This document shows positions 1 to 10,234 of a stretch of DNA of 10,250 bases, one piece after another. The DNA is from Sulfurovum sp. bin170 (GTDB lineage: Bacteria > Campylobacterota > Campylobacteria > Campylobacterales > Sulfurovaceae), in the NCBI RefSeq assembly GCF_010892395.1, contig NZ_JAACKB010000324.1:1-10250 (forward strand), given 5' to 3'. Every line of letters starts with the position of its first letter. The stretch's first letter is position 1. The translations under genes and the position numbers were made by a program. The notes beneath the pieces were generated by a model, which had not been told where the DNA came from, searched no databases, and worked only from the letters and a program-made list of their open reading frames with translations.

Positions 1-700
1 TACTATCTTTGTTATTTATAGATATCGAAACTTCATCAAGCCTGTGAGCTTTTTTATCAAAAGGATTCACAGAGCTAGGAATCTGAATAAAACCACTCAT
101 CTTGGAGTGAATAGAAGCGATGCCTATAACCCTAAATAGGTTATCTTTTATTCTCAAAAAACTACCTATATTGATATGCTGTTTTTTAGATAAATCACTA
201 CTAACAATAACAACTCTATGGTAGGCTTTTATATCATAAGGAATAATTTTTCTACCTCTTTTTATCTCCAAATTTTCTATCTCTATAAATGAAGCATTTG
301 AGATATATACATCGGCGATAAAATCACTACTGGCAAAAGTTATCAATTTTTTTGGATATTTTATAATGGGTGAGACCAGACCATTGTCTCCTATAATCGC
401 CTCTATAGAGTGGTAATCATCTTGGGTTATATTCTCTTTGATTCTAATGGTATTGAGACCGAAATCTTGAATATTATTAATAGCTTCTTGCTTAATACCC
501 TCACTAACCGAGAGTAAAATCACAATAGAGATAACACCAACCATAATACCAATAACACTAAGCAGAGTATGAACCCAATGGTTTTTGAGCTTTTGAAGAG
601 TTGCGTCTATATCTTTTATTAGAGTTCTTGAAAAACTTGGAATCGGAAGGCTTCGCCTCCGTTGTTCGGGAGTAAACTCTCCGTTTCCAAAAAGTCTCAT
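1..700 (-). CDS. MacB/FtsX-type ABC transporter permease, N-terminal part (3' end outside window)
   Basis: This is the inner-membrane permease of a MacAB-TolC-like export system. The reading frame is open from ATG 700-698 to the left edge (233 residues seen). The order is a cytoplasmic tail (1-43), a first membrane segment around 44-65 (TLLSVIGIMVGVISIVILL), the conserved SVSEG that follows TM1 in MacB permeases, then a periplasmic domain of the MacB_PCD type (66-233). The last three membrane segments should lie beyond the window. The start overlaps the ATPase stop as ATGA, so translation is probably coupled. Residues 5-21 (GNGEFTPEQRRRSLPIP) are encoded by a palindromic repeat (639-688) also present twice in noncoding DNA here, so the N-terminus is partly repeat-derived. 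The native tail probably begins near LIKDIDATLQKLKNHW. The family is secure; the substrate is unknown. Confidence 0.88.
   Translation of the reverse strand, partial: MRLFGNGEFTPEQRRRSLPIPSFSRTLIKDIDATLQKLKNHWVHTLLSVIGIMVGVISIVILLSVSEGIKQEAINNIQDFGLNTIRIKENITQDDYHSIEAIIGDNGLVSPIIKYPKKLITFASSDFIADVYISNASFIEIENLEIKRGRKIIPYDIKAYHRVVIVSSDLSKKQHINIGSFLRIKDNLFRVIGIASIHSKMSGFIQIPSSVNPFDKKAHRLDEVSISINNKDS
639..688 (+). repeat. Structured palindromic repeat, copy 1, inside the permease coding sequence
   Basis: This 50-bp element starts with GGAATCGG (639-646) and ends with CCGTTTCC (681-688), which pair with one mismatch. Inside are a hairpin AGGC-TTC-GCCT (648-658) and a hairpin GAG-TAAA-CTC (670-679). 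The spacer CCTCCGTTGTTCGGG is shared exactly with copy 2 (7976-8026), and the right end GGAGTAAACTCTCCG is shared with copy 3 (8048-8105). As in the other copies an A-rich run follows. It is read in the antisense direction as codons 5-21 of the permease without a stop or frameshift. The element class is unnamed here; REP-like or Rickettsia-palindromic-element-like behaviour is inferred. Confidence 0.85.
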
Positions 701-4882: not shown

Positions 4883-5440
4883 CTATTTCTGAATAGGATT
4901 AAGCTCTTTTAGTGCAGGAAAGTTTGTCAAAAATCTTCTCTTTGCACTCTTCATCTGTAGAGCCTTAAAACTCATTCTATCAGCCTCTTGTTCCAGTCCT
5001 ACATCATTGTTTATCTCTACCTCTCTCTTTCCTTTCATTTGGGTGGTATCACCATAAACTCTTCTCTGTTTCTGCTGTACGACATGCCAAGCTACATGAG
5101 CTAACTGATTCTCGGCTCCTGTAGCGAGGTGTATATCCGAACCTTGGGCAAAAGCATCAGCTTTGAGCTGTGCAGGTTCTGAGGAGTTATAATGCACTTT
5201 AACATCATCCATCGAGTAGCCAGAGAGAGACTCTATACTGTTTTTTAGAGTGTCAGGCAATCCTGTATTGTTCAGTCTTCTCTGCATCACCTCTTCTCCA
5301 AAAATCTCCTCTTGCTCTTTGGATTTCTCCTGCATAAAATGCGTCTGCATCGTCTGCTCTGTTGCTGTTCCACCACTGTTTTTTAAAACTCTATCGTCAT
5401 TTGATAGATTTTTAATCTTTTTTTGTTGAAAATTTTTCAT
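4883..5440 (-). CDS. Stand-alone DUF4157 (eCIS-core-type) protein with a degenerate HExxH motif
   Basis: This 185-aa protein has no signal peptide or membrane segment. After a polar, probably disordered N-terminus (1-55, Gln/Lys/Glu rich) comes a DUF4157 core (about 60-128): LPDTLKNSIESLSGYSMDDV, VHYNS, ADAFAQGSDIHLATG, then LAHVAWHVVQQKQRRV. Members normally read HExxH (for example HEAWHVVQQKQ). Here the Glu is Val116 (codon GTA, 5095-5093), so H115 and H119 remain but the catalytic base is missing. GLEQEADRM (148-156) is the usual downstream acidic motif. DUF4157 is known as the core domain of extracellular contractile injection system cargo and of polymorphic toxins. No toxin domain follows here and no injection genes are in the window. 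A strong AGGAG site lies at 5454-5450. Family call is good; function is unknown. Confidence 0.85.
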   Translation of the reverse strand: MKNFQQKKIKNLSNDDRVLKNSGGTATEQTMQTHFMQEKSKEQEEIFGEEVMQRRLNNTGLPDTLKNSIESLSGYSMDDVKVHYNSSEPAQLKADAFAQGSDIHLATGAENQLAHVAWHVVQQKQRRVYGDTTQMKGKREVEINNDVGLEQEADRMSFKALQMKSAKRRFLTNFPALKELNPIQK

Positions 5441-5573: not shown

Positions 5574-7970
5574 ATGCACAATCGATTAGAAAGCTTAATG
5601 GAAAAATTCGGCTCATTTATCCACGATAATCCCTTCAAGGTTATCTTGGTTTTGATGCTACTTTTAGCACTCCCCATTTCACACCTCCCACAAATCAAGA
5701 TGGACACCTCCACAGAGGGTTTCATGCATGATGATGACCCAGTTTTGTTGACCTACAACAAGTTTCGTGACCAGTTTGGACGCGATGAGAGAGTGGTTTT
5801 AGCCATTAAGAGTGATGAAATTTTCTCTTTGAAGTTTCTACAAACTCTTAAATCACTACATAAGGATATAGAGACCAAAGTACCTTTTGTTGAGGATGTG
5901 ACCTCTTTATATAATGTAAGGAATACACGAGGTGATGGAGATAAGCTCATCACTGATGATTTGCTAGAACCATTTCCTACCACTCTGGAGCAGGTTGAGA
6001 GCATCAAACAGAGAGCCATGAGTTCTCATTTCTACAAAGATTTGCTAATCAGTCAAGATGGCAAGATGACGACTATTCTAATCGAAACGGATGCTTACTC
6101 TCATGAGGGGGAGACTAAAATCGCTGATGAGGATGCTTTTGATGAGGGCTTTGGCGACTCTGCTCCTACAGATAATAAGCCAAAAGCATTTTTGACCGAT
6201 GCTGAGAATGCTCAACTGATTAACTCAATATTGGCGATTGCTGATGAGTATAGAGCCAAGGGGCTAGAGGTGTTTGTTGCAGGTTCTCCCTATGTCAATC
6301 ATGATTTGAAATTGCAGATGAAATCAGATATGCAGAAATTTATGTTGATTACCTTTGTGATTATTTTGGTTTTTTTATTGCTGATATTCAGACGAGCTTC
6401 GGCTGTTTTTTATCCTATTTTGGTGATTATATTTGCACTCCTATCAACGATTGGGACGATGGCATGGGCAGGGGTGGCGTTTAAACTGCCGACACAGATT
6501 GTCCCTTCACTTCTGTTGGCTGTCTCTGTAGGAGCAACGGTACATATTCTCTCTATCTTTTTTGATAGATTCAACGAGAGTGGCAACAAAAAAGAGGCTC
6601 TATCTTATACGATGGGGCATTCAGGACTGGCAATCGCCATGACCTCTGTTACCACAGCGATTGGTGTTGGTTCATTTGCAGGGAGTGAGGTTGCACCCAT
6701 CTCTGACCTTGGGATATTTGCTTCATTTGGGGTGATGGTCTCTTTGGTGCTGACCTTGACCCTGTTACCTGCACTTCTCTCCATTACAAAACTAAAACCA
6801 AAAACAAAAACGGAAGCAGGAAGACTAGACAAGTTGATGAAAAAATTAGCTACAATTCCTGTTAACCATACCAAAACTGTACTAGTTGGCAGTTTTCTGC
6901 TCGTCGCCATCGCCCTTATCGCCTCTACACAGGTAGGATTATCTCACAATCCTCTAAAATTTTTTCAACCAGATAATATGACTAGAGTCTCAACTGAGGT
7001 GATAGATAAACAGATGAATGGTACAGTGACTATTGAAGTGGTGGTTGATACAGGCAAGGAGAATGGTTGGGTTGACCCTGTGAGATTGGAGAAACTAAAT
7101 CAGTTCTCAACCAAACTGGAGTCTTATGTCGATGAGTATACCCATGTAGGGAAAGTTATCTCACTAGCAACTATTGTCAAAGAGACCAATCGAGCCTTGC
7201 ATGAAAATCAAGAGAAGTACTATAGCATCCCAACCGATGCCAATCTTGTCTCACAAGAGCTTCTGCTGTTTGAAAACTCAGGCTCTGATGACCTTGAAGA
7301 TATGGTCGATTCTCAATTCTCAAAAGCTAGAATCACGATTAAGTTACCTTGGATAGACTCGATATACTCCATTAAGGTACTTGATTTTGTCAAAGCAGAA
7401 GCAGTCGCAACATTCAAAGGTGACAAGGTGGAGGTGACAGGAATGACTCCTCTGCTAAATAGCACCTTTGTTAACTCCATAAACTCATCGGTTAGCAGTT
7501 ATCTTATCGCTTTTATCGCCATCACTTTTATGATGATGCTGATTTTAGGCTCGGTTCGTATTGGACTCTTTAGCATGATTCCCAATCTAGCACCTATTAT
7601 TGTAGGGCTTCTGCTGATGTATGTGATGAATATCCCACTTGATATGTTTACACTGCTGATTGGCTCCATTGCTATTGGACTGGCAGTGGATAACACAATA
7701 CACTTTATACACAATTTTAAGCGATACTACTTGGAGAGTGGAGATTCAGCCAAGGCGATCGAGCAGACATTCTTTACTACAGGAAAAGCGATGGTGATTA
7801 CAACACTGGTTCTCTCTTTGGGCTTTTTCGCCTACCTGAGTGCGAATATGATTTCTGTGCAGAACTTTGGGCTCTTGACAGGGGCTGTTATCTCGTTTGC
7901 ACTTCTTTCTGATTTGTTGTTAGCACCTGCTTTGATGATTGTGTTGGCTAGATGGGGTTGGATTAAATAA
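5574..7970 (+). CDS. RND-superfamily (MMPL/HpnN-like) inner-membrane transporter
   Basis: This 798-aa protein has the two-fold RND layout: TM1 (22-39), a large periplasmic domain (41-254), TM2-TM6 (about 256-273, 278-300, 307-329, 350-370, 379-403), then TM7 (435-453), a second periplasmic domain (455-640) and TM8-TM12 (about 641-661, 664-686, 690-714, 737-757, 765-792). It is shorter than HAE1/AcrB pumps (about 1,030) and fits the COG1033 'predicted exporter' MMPL-like group that includes the hopanoid transporter HpnN. TM10 has GLAVDNTIHF with D706 as candidate proton-relay residue; the matching place in TM4 (SVGATVHI) has Gly320. An acidic insert lies at about 178-196. Downstream are a LolA-like carrier and an outer-membrane barrel, so a proton-driven export of a lipid or hydrophobic molecule is inferred; the substrate is unknown. 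Confidence 0.9.
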   Translation: MHNRLESLMEKFGSFIHDNPFKVILVLMLLLALPISHLPQIKMDTSTEGFMHDDDPVLLTYNKFRDQFGRDERVVLAIKSDEIFSLKFLQTLKSLHKDIETKVPFVEDVTSLYNVRNTRGDGDKLITDDLLEPFPTTLEQVESIKQRAMSSHFYKDLLISQDGKMTTILIETDAYSHEGETKIADEDAFDEGFGDSAPTDNKPKAFLTDAENAQLINSILAIADEYRAKGLEVFVAGSPYVNHDLKLQMKSDMQKFMLITFVIILVFLLLIFRRASAVFYPILVIIFALLSTIGTMAWAGVAFKLPTQIVPSLLLAVSVGATVHILSIFFDRFNESGNKKEALSYTMGHSGLAIAMTSVTTAIGVGSFAGSEVAPISDLGIFASFGVMVSLVLTLTLLPALLSITKLKPKTKTEAGRLDKLMKKLATIPVNHTKTVLVGSFLLVAIALIASTQVGLSHNPLKFFQPDNMTRVSTEVIDKQMNGTVTIEVVVDTGKENGWVDPVRLEKLNQFSTKLESYVDEYTHVGKVISLATIVKETNRALHENQEKYYSIPTDANLVSQELLLFENSGSDDLEDMVDSQFSKARITIKLPWIDSIYSIKVLDFVKAEAVATFKGDKVEVTGMTPLLNSTFVNSINSSVSSYLIAFIAITFMMMLILGSVRIGLFSMIPNLAPIIVGLLLMYVMNIPLDMFTLLIGSIAIGLAVDNTIHFIHNFKRYYLESGDSAKAIEQTFFTTGKAMVITTLVLSLGFFAYLSANMISVQNFGLLTGAVISFALLSDLLLAPALMIVLARWGWIK

Positions 7971-7975
7971 AACTA

Positions 7976-8026
7976 GGAATCGGAGGGCTTCTGCCTCCGT
8001 TGTTCGGGTGTAAACACGCCGATTCC
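7976..8026 (+). repeat. Structured palindromic repeat, copy 2 (intergenic)
   Basis: This is a 51-bp element six bases after the RND stop codon. The ends GGAATCGG (7976-7983) and CCGATTCC (8019-8026) are perfect 8-bp inverted repeats. Inside are a hairpin built on GGAGG/CCTCC (7982-7986 with 7994-7998, or GGC-TTCT-GCC) and a hairpin GTG-TAAA-CAC (8008-8017). Relative to copy 1 this second stem has changed on both sides (GAG/CTC to GTG/CAC), which preserves pairing. It has no T-run after it, so it is not a standard intrinsic terminator, but it could act in RNA stability or attenuation between the RND and LolA-like genes. Confidence 0.85.
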
Positions 8027-8047
8027 GAAAATGCAGATTGCATATAG

Positions 8048-8105
8048 GGAAACGATGGCTTCAGCCTCGCTAACTCATTGGCATTGGAGTAAACTCTCCG
8101 CTTCC
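8048..8105 (+). repeat. Structured palindromic repeat, copy 3 (diverged, with an extra hairpin)
   Basis: This 58-bp element lies 21 bases after copy 2 in the same orientation. GGAAACG (8048-8054) pairs with CGCTTCC (8099-8105) with one mismatch. It keeps GGC-TTCA-GCC (8057-8066) and GAG-TAAA-CTC (8087-8096), and adds a middle hairpin GCTAA-CTCA-TTGGC (8069-8082, one G-T pair) where copies 1 and 2 have a short GTTGTTC spacer. The predicted fold is therefore a four-way, cloverleaf-like shape. The right end is nearly identical to copy 1, so the copies are mosaic. A TATAAT box follows directly at 8112. Confidence 0.7.
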
Positions 8106-8111
8106 AAAATA

Positions 8112-8117
8112 TATAAT
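8112..8117 (+). promoter_or_regulatory. Possible -10 box (TATAAT) before the LolA-like gene
   Basis: A perfect TATAAT lies seven bases after repeat copy 3 and 16 bases before ATG 8134, predicting a leader of only about ten bases. The -35 position falls inside the repeat and is poor. The start of the LolA-like gene has no clear Shine-Dalgarno (TTAAACGAAAAAC precedes it), consistent with a very short leader or weak initiation. In so AT-rich a gap the match may be chance. Confidence 0.35.
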
Positions 8118-8133
8118 AAATTAAACGAAAAAC

Positions 8134-8934
8134 ATGAAAACAAAAAAACTACTATTTTTACTAGGAGTAGGTGCATCACTATTAACAATACCTGCAGTAG
8201 CAGAAGAGACAGATGCAAGAGCCATTATGGAAAAAGTGGATGCTAGAGATGAGGGAGATACCTTAGAGCAAGATATGATGATGGTTCTCATTGATAAAAA
8301 TGGAAAAGAGAGAACGCGTGACATAAAATCTTATGCCAAAGATTTTGGAGAAGATAGTCACAAAACCATGTTCTTCAAAAGTCCATCAGATGTTAAAAAT
8401 ACAGCATTTCTGACCTATGATTATGATGATTCTGTCAAGGATGATGACCAGTGGCTCTATCTACCAGCACTTAAAAAGGTAAAAAGAATCCCATCAACAG
8501 ACAAAAGTTCAAGCTTTATGGGTTCAGATTTTTCCTATTTTGACATGACCGACCGTGATTTGGAGGATTATGATTTTAAACTGCTCAAAGAGACACAAGT
8601 TCGTGGGCATGATGCGTGGATGATAGAGTCAACTCCTAGAAATCAAGAGATTATTGATGAGTCTGGGTATGAGAAGACGATTGCTATTGTGCGAAAAGAT
8701 AACTATATGGTTGTTCGAGCGATTAATTTTATGAGCAGTGGAAAGAAGAAGTATCTTGATATTAAAAAGATTCGTGAAGAGAGTGGAATTTGGTTGATTG
8801 ATGAGATGACCATGACCACCAAAAAAGGGAAAAGAACTCTGCATAAGACAATATTGTCGTTTGATAATGTAACGCTAAATGGTAAGATTGATGATGGGGT
8901 GTTTACTACGAGACGACTGGAAAAAGGACTCTAG
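8134..8934 (+). CDS. Periplasmic LolA-like, outer membrane lipoprotein-sorting family protein
   Basis: This 266-aa secreted protein has a type I signal peptide (MKTKKLLFLLGVGASLLT) with probable cleavage after AVA23. The mature part matches, by eye, the LolA-like 'outer membrane lipoprotein-sorting protein' group (COG2834; TP_0789-like fold): ARAIMEKVDARDEGDT, a run of strands with MMVLIDKNGKERTRDIKSY, FFKSPSDVKNTAFLTYDY, DDQWLYLPALKKVKRIPSTD, SSSFMGSDFSYFDM, then W.IESTP and a C-terminal strand region. These proteins have a half-open beta-barrel that can hold acyl chains. It is encoded between an RND transporter and an outer-membrane barrel, so it is probably the periplasmic shuttle of that route rather than the general lipoprotein carrier LolA (inference). 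Its stop (8932-8934) is one base before the next start. Confidence 0.88.
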   Translation: MKTKKLLFLLGVGASLLTIPAVAEETDARAIMEKVDARDEGDTLEQDMMMVLIDKNGKERTRDIKSYAKDFGEDSHKTMFFKSPSDVKNTAFLTYDYDDSVKDDDQWLYLPALKKVKRIPSTDKSSSFMGSDFSYFDMTDRDLEDYDFKLLKETQVRGHDAWMIESTPRNQEIIDESGYEKTIAIVRKDNYMVVRAINFMSSGKKKYLDIKKIREESGIWLIDEMTMTTKKGKRTLHKTILSFDNVTLNGKIDDGVFTTRRLEKGL

Positions 8935-8935
8935 G

Positions 8936-10234
8936 ATGCGAATAGCTCTAGGCTCTCTTCTCTTGGTCTCTCTGCTTGGGGCTGAAAATATTGATGATAT
9001 GATGGATGGTTTTGATGATAAACCAGTCACAAAAAAAGCTCAAACAATTGAGCCTAAGATTGAAGATGACTTAATGGATGGTTTTGATGATGATGCAAAG
9101 AAAATCTTTGATGCCAAAACTCTGCATTGTGGTACAGATTTGCCAAAAGAGGATAAAAAATCATATAGTTTGACAGGCAAAATAACTGAACAGGTTGCCT
9201 ACTCTTATAGTGATGATGAACCTCATGATGATTTCTCTTCATTAAAAACTTCACTGTTTTTGGATTATGAGTATAAGTTTGAGAATGGTTTCAAGTTTAA
9301 GACAAATGGAAAAGCCTACTATGATGCTATTTATGATATTAGAGGAAGTGAGAAATATAACTCTGATGAGCTTGATGAGTTGCGTAGTGAAGTAGAGCTT
9401 TTTGATGCTTATATTGAGGGAAGTCTTACAGATAATTTTGATATGAAACTCGGTCGTCAAGTGGTGGTTTGGGGGCGAAGTGATACGATTCGTGTAACAG
9501 ATGTACTCAATCCTATTGATAACCGTCGCCCTGGGATGGTGGACATTGAGGATTTGCGTTTGCCTGTCACTATGGCAAAATTTGACTATTTTGTGGGCGA
9601 TTGGCGTATTACCCCTATCGCTGTTTTGGAGCAGAGATTTACCAAAAATCCACCATTTGGTTCAGCATTTAACCCATCTCCAAGACCAATGCCAAAAGAT
9701 AAAGACTACTTTGAAGTAACCCCTGCAATGAGCATTGGTGGTGAGTTTTCGGGTTGGGATGTTAACTTTTACTCGGCACAGATTTCTAAAACTGAAGATG
9801 AGAAAGTAGAGATGTATGGAACGGCTCTTAATATATTGAGTGGTTCATGGCTTCTGAAATCAGAATTTGCCTATTTTGATGATGAGACAAAAGAGAAACA
9901 TGGACTATTGGGTCTGGAGTATAATGGGGTTTCGGATACTCTAATCTCGTATGATATAGCTCTTAAAAAACAGGATGGGATAGATGAGCAGTATCAACAC
10001 GCTTTTCGTGTGAGTTCGGATTTTATGAATGCAACGCTAAAAGCTAACTATCTTATCTCTCTGTTTGGTTCAAAGATGGATGAGGGTGGATTTCAGAGGG
10101 CTTGGGTGAAATATGATATTGCTGATGGTATTTTTGCCAATGTTGGGGTTGTTGATTATATTGGTGGGTCACAACAGTTTGATGCTGTGTCAAATAATGA
10201 TATGGCATTTGTTGATTTGACTTATAGTTTTTAA
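8936..10234 (+). CDS. DUF1302-like outer-membrane beta-barrel protein
   Basis: The start at ATG 8936 (432 aa) is chosen over an in-frame ATG at 8879 because it gives a signal peptide (MRIALGSLLLVSLLGA, cleavage after A16), is preceded by AAGGA at 8924-8928, and avoids a 56-bp overlap with the upstream gene. The mature N-terminus is acidic and contains a duplicated motif, DDMMDGFDD (20-28) and DDLMDGFDD (44-52). A barrel-like body of alternating strands follows, with the block LGRQVVVWGRSDTIRVTDVL then NPIDNRRPG and DIEDLRLPV, which is the hallmark I associate with DUF1302 outer-membrane proteins. The chain ends in Phe (DLTYSF), the usual barrel-assembly C-terminus. It is translationally close-coupled to the LolA-like gene and is probably the outer-membrane partner of the RND/LolA-like route. 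Substrate is unknown. Confidence 0.85.
   Translation: MRIALGSLLLVSLLGAENIDDMMDGFDDKPVTKKAQTIEPKIEDDLMDGFDDDAKKIFDAKTLHCGTDLPKEDKKSYSLTGKITEQVAYSYSDDEPHDDFSSLKTSLFLDYEYKFENGFKFKTNGKAYYDAIYDIRGSEKYNSDELDELRSEVELFDAYIEGSLTDNFDMKLGRQVVVWGRSDTIRVTDVLNPIDNRRPGMVDIEDLRLPVTMAKFDYFVGDWRITPIAVLEQRFTKNPPFGSAFNPSPRPMPKDKDYFEVTPAMSIGGEFSGWDVNFYSAQISKTEDEKVEMYGTALNILSGSWLLKSEFAYFDDETKEKHGLLGLEYNGVSDTLISYDIALKKQDGIDEQYQHAFRVSSDFMNATLKANYLISLFGSKMDEGGFQRAWVKYDIADGIFANVGVVDYIGGSQQFDAVSNNDMAFVDLTYSF

Follow-up and report, generated by a model that had tools for sequence, protein, structure and literature searches.

A dispersed GGAA-headed repeat family lying in frame within a MacB-like permease gene and other genes of Sulfurovum

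Background

The frame of a MacB-like ABC permease gene from Sulfurovum sp. bin170 runs, just behind its start codon, through a palindromic repeat. This raises the question of whether the repeat is mobile DNA that has become coding sequence or a leader preceding the true start, and to which kind of element it belongs. The window, that is the whole stretch of DNA analysed here, is the entire contig C365 (10,250 bases) of a metagenome-assembled genome (MAG) of 2.12 Mb in 462 contigs, 83% complete, and the repeat copies are known from the MAG consensus sequence. Gene and domain searches of the window placed an ATPase gene after the permease, followed by HlyD-type and outer-membrane efflux genes, and Rfam, at its gathering thresholds, matched nothing in the window. 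The following features are referred to below, the REPIN and REP labels being our reading of the repeat unit.

2..700, minus strand: MacB-like ABC permease (PF12704, MacB_PCD) with the repeat inside, cut by the contig end
697..1341, minus strand: ABC ATPase (PF00005), whose stop codon overlaps the permease ATG (ATGA, 697-700)
637..690, plus strand: REPIN copy 1, subtype A (longer match 636-696; core GGAA...TTCC 639-688), antisense in the permease
639-661, 662-666 and 667-688, plus strand: left REP, spacer and right REP of copy 1, with outer TTGGAA/TTCCAA
625..637, plus strand: TTCTTGAAAAACT, like the outer left arm of other copies (comparison of copies)
638..694, minus strand: 57-nt extra segment relative to orthologue P0002, permease codons 3-21, the ends being set by the common MR start
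7973..8031, plus strand: REPIN copy 2, starting 2 nt past the stop codon of an MMPL gene
8046..8109, plus strand: divergent copy 3, shortly after copy 2

Elsewhere in the window (5574-10234), genes for an MMPL transporter, a LolA-like protein and a DUF1302 protein follow one another on the plus strand, copies 2 and 3 lying between the first two. The product of 4883-5440, which has a Pfam eCIS_core match, resembles by eye that of L106:1579-2670 in its N-terminal part, and further repeats were seen within tail or contractile-injection genes at two other loci (L135 and L171).

A dispersed family and its apparent anatomy

The window repeat is a copy of a dispersed family and not a chance similarity. 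A sequence search of its own genome yielded 30 matches at E ≤ 1e-3. A covariance model built from 22 copies, with one hairpin of 6 base pairs, yielded 142 (136 of 1070 candidates being scored); counts from this model (R1) rest mainly on sequence because it holds just 6 pairs, and some of the 142 matches may be second-strand doubles, since the unit is palindromic. Model matches occurred in 16 of 41 genomes, corresponding to 16 of the 25 from one Sulfurovum-like genus (own genome included) and to none of the 16 outside it. The plain-sequence search found the repeat in 14 of 60 genomes, every one within a single Sulfurovum-like genus. One relative, Sulfurovum sp. UBA1140 (G020), was rich in copies (96 matches).

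Aligned copies displayed GGAA(T/C)CGG... and ...CCG(A/T)TTCC ends flanking two short palindromes, and the unit is best read as two inverted REPs, each with a putative GGAA head and an imperfect palindrome. Paired inverted REPs as the repeated unit are characteristic of REPINs and BIMEs; here the right hairpin was counted and the left one recognised by eye only. The family shares with them many dispersed and mostly extragenic copies, 123 of 164 examined elements being intergenic in loci of which ORFs of at least 150 aa (or cut by the locus end) span 0.87 and 0.79. The GTAG/CGTC type of head was not seen, the head being GGAA in most aligned copies. Two subtypes could be distinguished: subtype A, the window type, whose left half resembles GGAATCGGAAGGCTCTGCCTCCG, and subtype B, whose left half resembles GGAACCGATGGCTTTAGCCTCG and which often bears outer arms CTTGCAAAACT / AGTTTTGCAAG. 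In addition, a spacer like ATGCAGATTGCATATAAGG recurs after repeat units (window 8031-8053; L008, L014, L016 and L017), forming larger composite modules.

Of 132 cells counted in the right hairpin, 97.0% are paired; 11 cells show changes on both sides, a number reached by none of 500 shuffles and compared with at most 2 in slid controls. Two further controls on this hairpin were less favourable: 2 pairs had changes on both sides, a result matched in 193 of 500 shuffles, and the number of pair types was reached by 25 of 500, so that the hairpin passes only part of its controls.

Extent of the permease segment

Read antisense in the permease, copy 1 gives MRLFGNGEFTPEQRRRSLPIPSFSRTLIKD, at about residues 2-22, and the repeat-coded peptide includes LFGNGEFTPEQR. 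Orthologues were drawn from a protein database because the best permease homologue that a genome search gave in another genome had 36% identity; besides the permease's own gene, those matches of that search whose alignment began within query residues 1-4 proved to be copies of the repeat. The comparison comprised two relatives besides the query. The closer, P0002 (68% identity, 379 aa), starts MRDFFYYLLQDTVATLQKLKN, the window permease having 19 more N-terminal residues before ATLQKLKN; the start of P0003 (50% identity) lies still later than that of P0002. The segment is therefore missing from both relatives found, and the in-frame repeat proposed in an earlier note on this DNA proved real, with many copies of its family and an extra 19 residues relative to P0002. 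The aligner reported an N-terminal extension against P0002 with no internal gap, and codons 3-21 are taken as inserted because the MR start is common to both proteins. This suggests that the permease carries a repeat-derived insert of 19 codons (57 nt), bounded as this shared start would imply. The earlier note had assigned residues 5-21 to the repeat; the insertion stands, its extent shifts to codons 3-21, and the SFSR that follows may be repeat-derived too, given the arm-like TTCTTGAAAAACT at 625-637.

Alternatively, the reading frame might only run through a repeat leader, the permease starting downstream, perhaps at a non-standard codon, without any repeat peptide being made. Excerpts of PMC3733652 advise such caution, since many N-terminal REPs were found there to reflect mis-annotated starts. 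By its looks one gene of the own genome (L003) is a case of this kind, coding for a prepilin-type protein with its methylation motif starting only behind the elements. In the permease, ATT at codon 20 is a conceivable rare start, the other near-start codons being ATA at 28 and 31, CTG at 46, and ATT at 50 and 52. However, there is no ATG, GTG or TTG from the start codon to codon 53, the permease ATG (698-700) overlaps the ATPase stop, P0002 begins with MR as well, and a downstream start cannot account for the internal copies in TrmB, an NspC-like protein and others described below. We therefore consider this alternative improbable. Both outcomes that the earlier note had listed as refuting its reading, orthologues that keep the segment and a start downstream of it, were looked for, and the results favoured that reading.

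The explanation that we prefer, and hold to be very probable, is that the 54-bp core belongs to a mobile REPIN family and forms a tolerated, antisense, in-frame insert in the permease (57 nt, 19 codons), and likewise in other genes. A unit of two inverted GGAA REPs would have entered near codon 3, adding 57 nt, and the encoded peptide would be translated. The gene would have survived because the core of the window copy is free of stops in five of six frames, including the antisense one for which this had been predicted, because the net gain is divisible by three, and because the site lies in the tail before TM1. This N-terminal tail is cytoplasmic in MacB-type permeases. A similar antisense peptide had also been predicted for copy 2; it does begin as expected, with GIGVFTPEQRRQ, but this copy exceeds copy 1 by 1 nt and its later frame differs. 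Comparable insertions would arise elsewhere in loops, linkers and termini, with only in-frame and structurally tolerated ones persisting and with neutral effects on the host proteins.

Hosts of internal copies

Among 117 distinct elements of the own genome, 85 were intergenic, 12 lay well inside an ORF, 15 near an N-terminus and 5 near a C-terminus; the corresponding numbers for the 47 elements of UBA1140 were 38, 4, 4 and 1. The two genomes together thus hold 16 of 164 elements well inside open genes, defined as at least 40 codons on each side by simple ORF calling in loci picked for holding repeats; several of the N-terminal rows are artefacts.

A recognised family could be assigned in 13 of the 16 internal cases, three remaining without one. 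The hosts were TrmB, HPr-enzyme I-like, ThiL-like and NspC-like proteins, an SdhA/FrdA-like flavoprotein (in both genomes), a PelB-like TPR protein, NFACT/RqcH-like, MMPL and PMT_2 proteins, a tail or contractile-injection protein, a baseplate-J protein (partial element) and an ORF joining YqiA-like and HD domains. Against NCBIfam, TrmB scored above its curated cut-off, and NspC, ThiL, enzyme I and the flavoprotein below theirs.

Comparison with relatives points to insertion in several of these enzymes. In TrmB, a 31-residue segment is missing from all 21 usable relatives (two of 23 rows, L261 and L264, were dropped as neighbouring ORFs). The repeat peptide of the NspC-like protein is missing from 119 of the 119 other homologues among the best 120 of 7172, whose loop measures 10-15 residues against 25 in the NspC-like protein; the insert site falls in a gap of the solved relative 3n29. 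The predicted model of this protein is weak evidence because, although block 121-130 has a pLDDT of 54, blocks away from the insert score equally low. The ThiL-like protein uses 203 residues to span 177 profile positions. In the enzyme I-like protein, the loop is variable among relatives and the repeat peptide occurs in none of 17 usable rows (one of 18, L284, was dropped as a neighbouring ORF). These proteins are unrelated, and in-frame insertion in unrelated proteins, with the segment missing from relatives, is also the hallmark of Rickettsia palindromic elements (RPEs). Taken together, the reading frames and alignments indicate that the cell probably makes proteins with residues encoded by mobile DNA. 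The cytoplasmic tail, singled out in the earlier note as the tolerant site, appears to be one of several, as loops, linkers and C-termini serve likewise.

Some single loci deserve mention. In two NspC homologues (P0150 and P0133), the loop corresponding to the insert reads GSGDFSP and GSEDFTS respectively, which could be element remnants or chance. In UBA1140, L200:1514-2716 is a single ORF in which residues 1-189 form a YqiA-like esterase and residues 232-382 an HD domain, with a repeat at about 199-218, possibly a gene fusion made by the repeat element. In the same genome, a protein that is prepilin-like by eye (L204:1564-2172) has a repeat behind its start codon and ahead of its first hydrophobic segment, and an HlyD-type protein (L199:1024-2076) has one similarly placed, both comparable to the window permease.

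One linker, several repeat families

The DNA of 16 genomes from the genus was used to read the linker that follows GGNSLLEI in the SdhA/FrdA-like flavoprotein. The own genome has subtype A there, UBA1140 has subtype B, and four genomes (G004, G012, G021 and G022) have GTAG-headed palindromes. Nothing could be assigned in ten others (G001, G002, G005, G009, G010, G013 and G015-G018), the linkers of G010 and G001 having short stems. Among the best 120 of 7985 flavoprotein homologues, 66 matched a loose expression for the GTAG-REP peptide, at the protein level only, and the GGAA family was found in three, namely the query, P0083 (UBA1140) and P0005 (half an element). The predicted fold of the flavoprotein had a mean pLDDT of 52 and was left out of the evidence.

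At the DNA level, the GTAG pattern was present in 8 of 31 genomes, a set to which G021 and G022 do not belong, and was absent from the reversed control. The matches include the G004 and G012 linkers and both sides of a Y1_Tnp gene (G004:C117:1362-1715). The latter lies between two inverted GTAG-type REPs (G004:C117:1281-1833) of the same family as that in the flavoprotein linker of this genome.

It is tentatively proposed that REP elements offer this genus an ever-present supply of ready-made protein inserts. One flavoprotein linker would have been entered independently by two or more unrelated families, namely GGAA REPINs (with two subtypes) and GTAG-type REPs, the family also seen on both sides of a Y1 transposase. 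Many linkers may be decayed REPs, in which case transposase-driven hairpins would diversify loops and, at times, fuse neighbouring genes.

Frames, folding and function

Another possible explanation is that the repeat-coded segment is selected for a function of its own, either as an mRNA hairpin with a regulatory role between the ATPase and permease genes or as a useful linker peptide. In 50 subtype A copies, the six core frames were open in 50, 2, 49, 37, 49 and 47 cases, and 8 of 10 in-gene subtype A copies, assigned by eye, use the frame of the window although five frames are mostly open. By our own reading, subtype B with its arms has two open frames, both being those used. In-gene frames were not read at L003 (two elements), L014, L016, L017 (two), L139, L141, L148, L161, L167 (6117), L186 (two) and L211, on the grounds of an ORF edge within or beside the element, a probable downstream start or a short ORF. 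These numbers would fit a selected segment, though they are suggestive only.

Folding also speaks for it in part, the permease (minus) strand of copy 1 folding better than most shuffles as RNA (z -2.5, 4 of 200 as good); on the plus strand, many shuffles fold as well as copy 1 does (z -1.1, 23 of 200). Folds of other single copies had z-scores of -2.2 (copy 2), -1.6 (copy 3), -4.7 (L021) and -3.6 (L022). A dedicated function is hard to square with the lack of kinship among the host proteins, with relatives that manage without the insert and with a flavoprotein linker that differs freely from species to species, and such selection is very doubtful when compared with tolerated insertion.

Candidate mobilising enzymes

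The repeat would be moved in trans by a Y1/HUH (RAYT-like) transposase. Y1_Tnp domains were detected in 26 of 37 genomes searched, and the repeat adjoins two of 54 Y1_Tnp loci (some places being counted twice). One of them (L105) is an IS605-like remnant in the own genome with a repeat copy adjacent. The other, L114 in genome G009, has repeats on both sides of an ORF (1294-1689, 131 aa) coding for part of a Y1 HUH transposase; they end a few bases before the ORF and resume at 1834. The ORF ends at a stop, and transposase-like sequence seems to continue beyond it. This part scored 25.9 against Pfam Y1_Tnp, above the cut-off of 23, and 23.7 bits against the NCBIfam RAYT model NF047646, below the cut-off of 80. 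Relatives of the L114 type (43-44% identity) occur in G021 and G046, each with its own hairpin repeats on both sides; that of G021 (43%) reached 68.8 against the same cut-off of 80.

The L114 clade was found in 5 of 41 genomes and, among the 16 repeat carriers, only in G009 and G021; no such transposase was detected in the own genome (a MAG, 83% complete) or in 13 of the other 15 carriers. Because of this scarcity and of the sub-cut-off RAYT score, we infer, and do not observe, that the L114-clade Y1/HUH transposase moves the repeat. The lack of a cognate transposase in the own genome, the IS605-like remnant beside a repeat copy and the inclusion of several copies in longer composites would also fit another agent, such as a MITE depending on a different transposase, or recombination or slippage. 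This is rather unlikely in view of the REP-pair anatomy, the repeats on both sides of the G009 gene and the two related transposases, each with its own REP-like clusters. Movement by a Y1/HUH transposase is accordingly retained as the preferred, conditional account.

REPs next to L114-clade transposases at L124 and L130 seemingly have purine-rich GGRR heads (GGAA, GGAG/GGGG), unlike GTAG. Four RAYT-type genes (L104, L106, L115 and L117) were considered as mobilisers and rejected, the GGAA repeat not being adjacent to them; L104 sits among GTAG-type palindromes.

Relation to described repeats

REPINs and BIMEs are described in the portions of Bertels & Rainey 2011 (PMC3116915) available to us as REP doublets forming hairpins, with REP clusters beside RAYTs, and RAYT-REP units are treated in those of PMC2817692. 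The Sulfurovum family shares with these descriptions the unit of two inverted REPs, the many copies and a possible hairpin or clover fold, and the repeat-flanked, stop-interrupted gene of G009 is a candidate counterpart of a RAYT with its cognate REPs. It differs from them, as far as these portions go, by its GGAA head, its Sulfurovum-like host, the intragenic position of some copies and the presence of a related transposase in 2 of 16 carriers.

The closest precedent in coding sequence is that of Di Nocera et al. 2013 (PMC3733652), excerpts of which describe intragenic GTAG/CGTC REP dimers coding for 20-30 aa in unrelated proteins, some at about one site in related species, and a Sulfurovum strain with GTAG and CGTC families whose tyrosine transposases are unflanked by CGTC repeats. 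As in those excerpts, the dimers reported here code within unrelated proteins and some occupy corresponding sites in related species. Relative to them, the Sulfurovum GGAA family has neither head, and its recognised hosts are metabolic, tRNA-modifying, transport and secretion proteins. Within the openly licensed literature, PMC3733652 was alone in treating Sulfurovum REPs and nothing was found on REPINs with RAYTs in epsilonproteobacteria, both being weak evidence of absence; the GGAA family was not found there and seems undescribed so far. With it, a sparsely covered host group gains a REP family whose head belongs to neither of the two large superfamilies, along with relative-controlled examples of mobile DNA become coding sequence within conserved enzymes. 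The flavoprotein linker, with different families in sister species, asks whether such inserts matter and what sets their tolerance.

The earlier note had drawn a parallel with RPEs, which part of PMC10969869 describes as elements of about 150 bp in ten families. The parallel holds for the way in which the element works, a palindromic unit lying in frame within many unrelated proteins; its anatomy is that of a REPIN/BIME-type inverted REP pair, and the Sulfurovum unit is set apart from that RPE description by its size of about 54 bp (segments of 57-93 nt in the permease, ThiL-like protein and TrmB). Since in-frame intragenic REPs and RPEs have both been published, the GGAA REPs are best regarded as a new family of a known kind.
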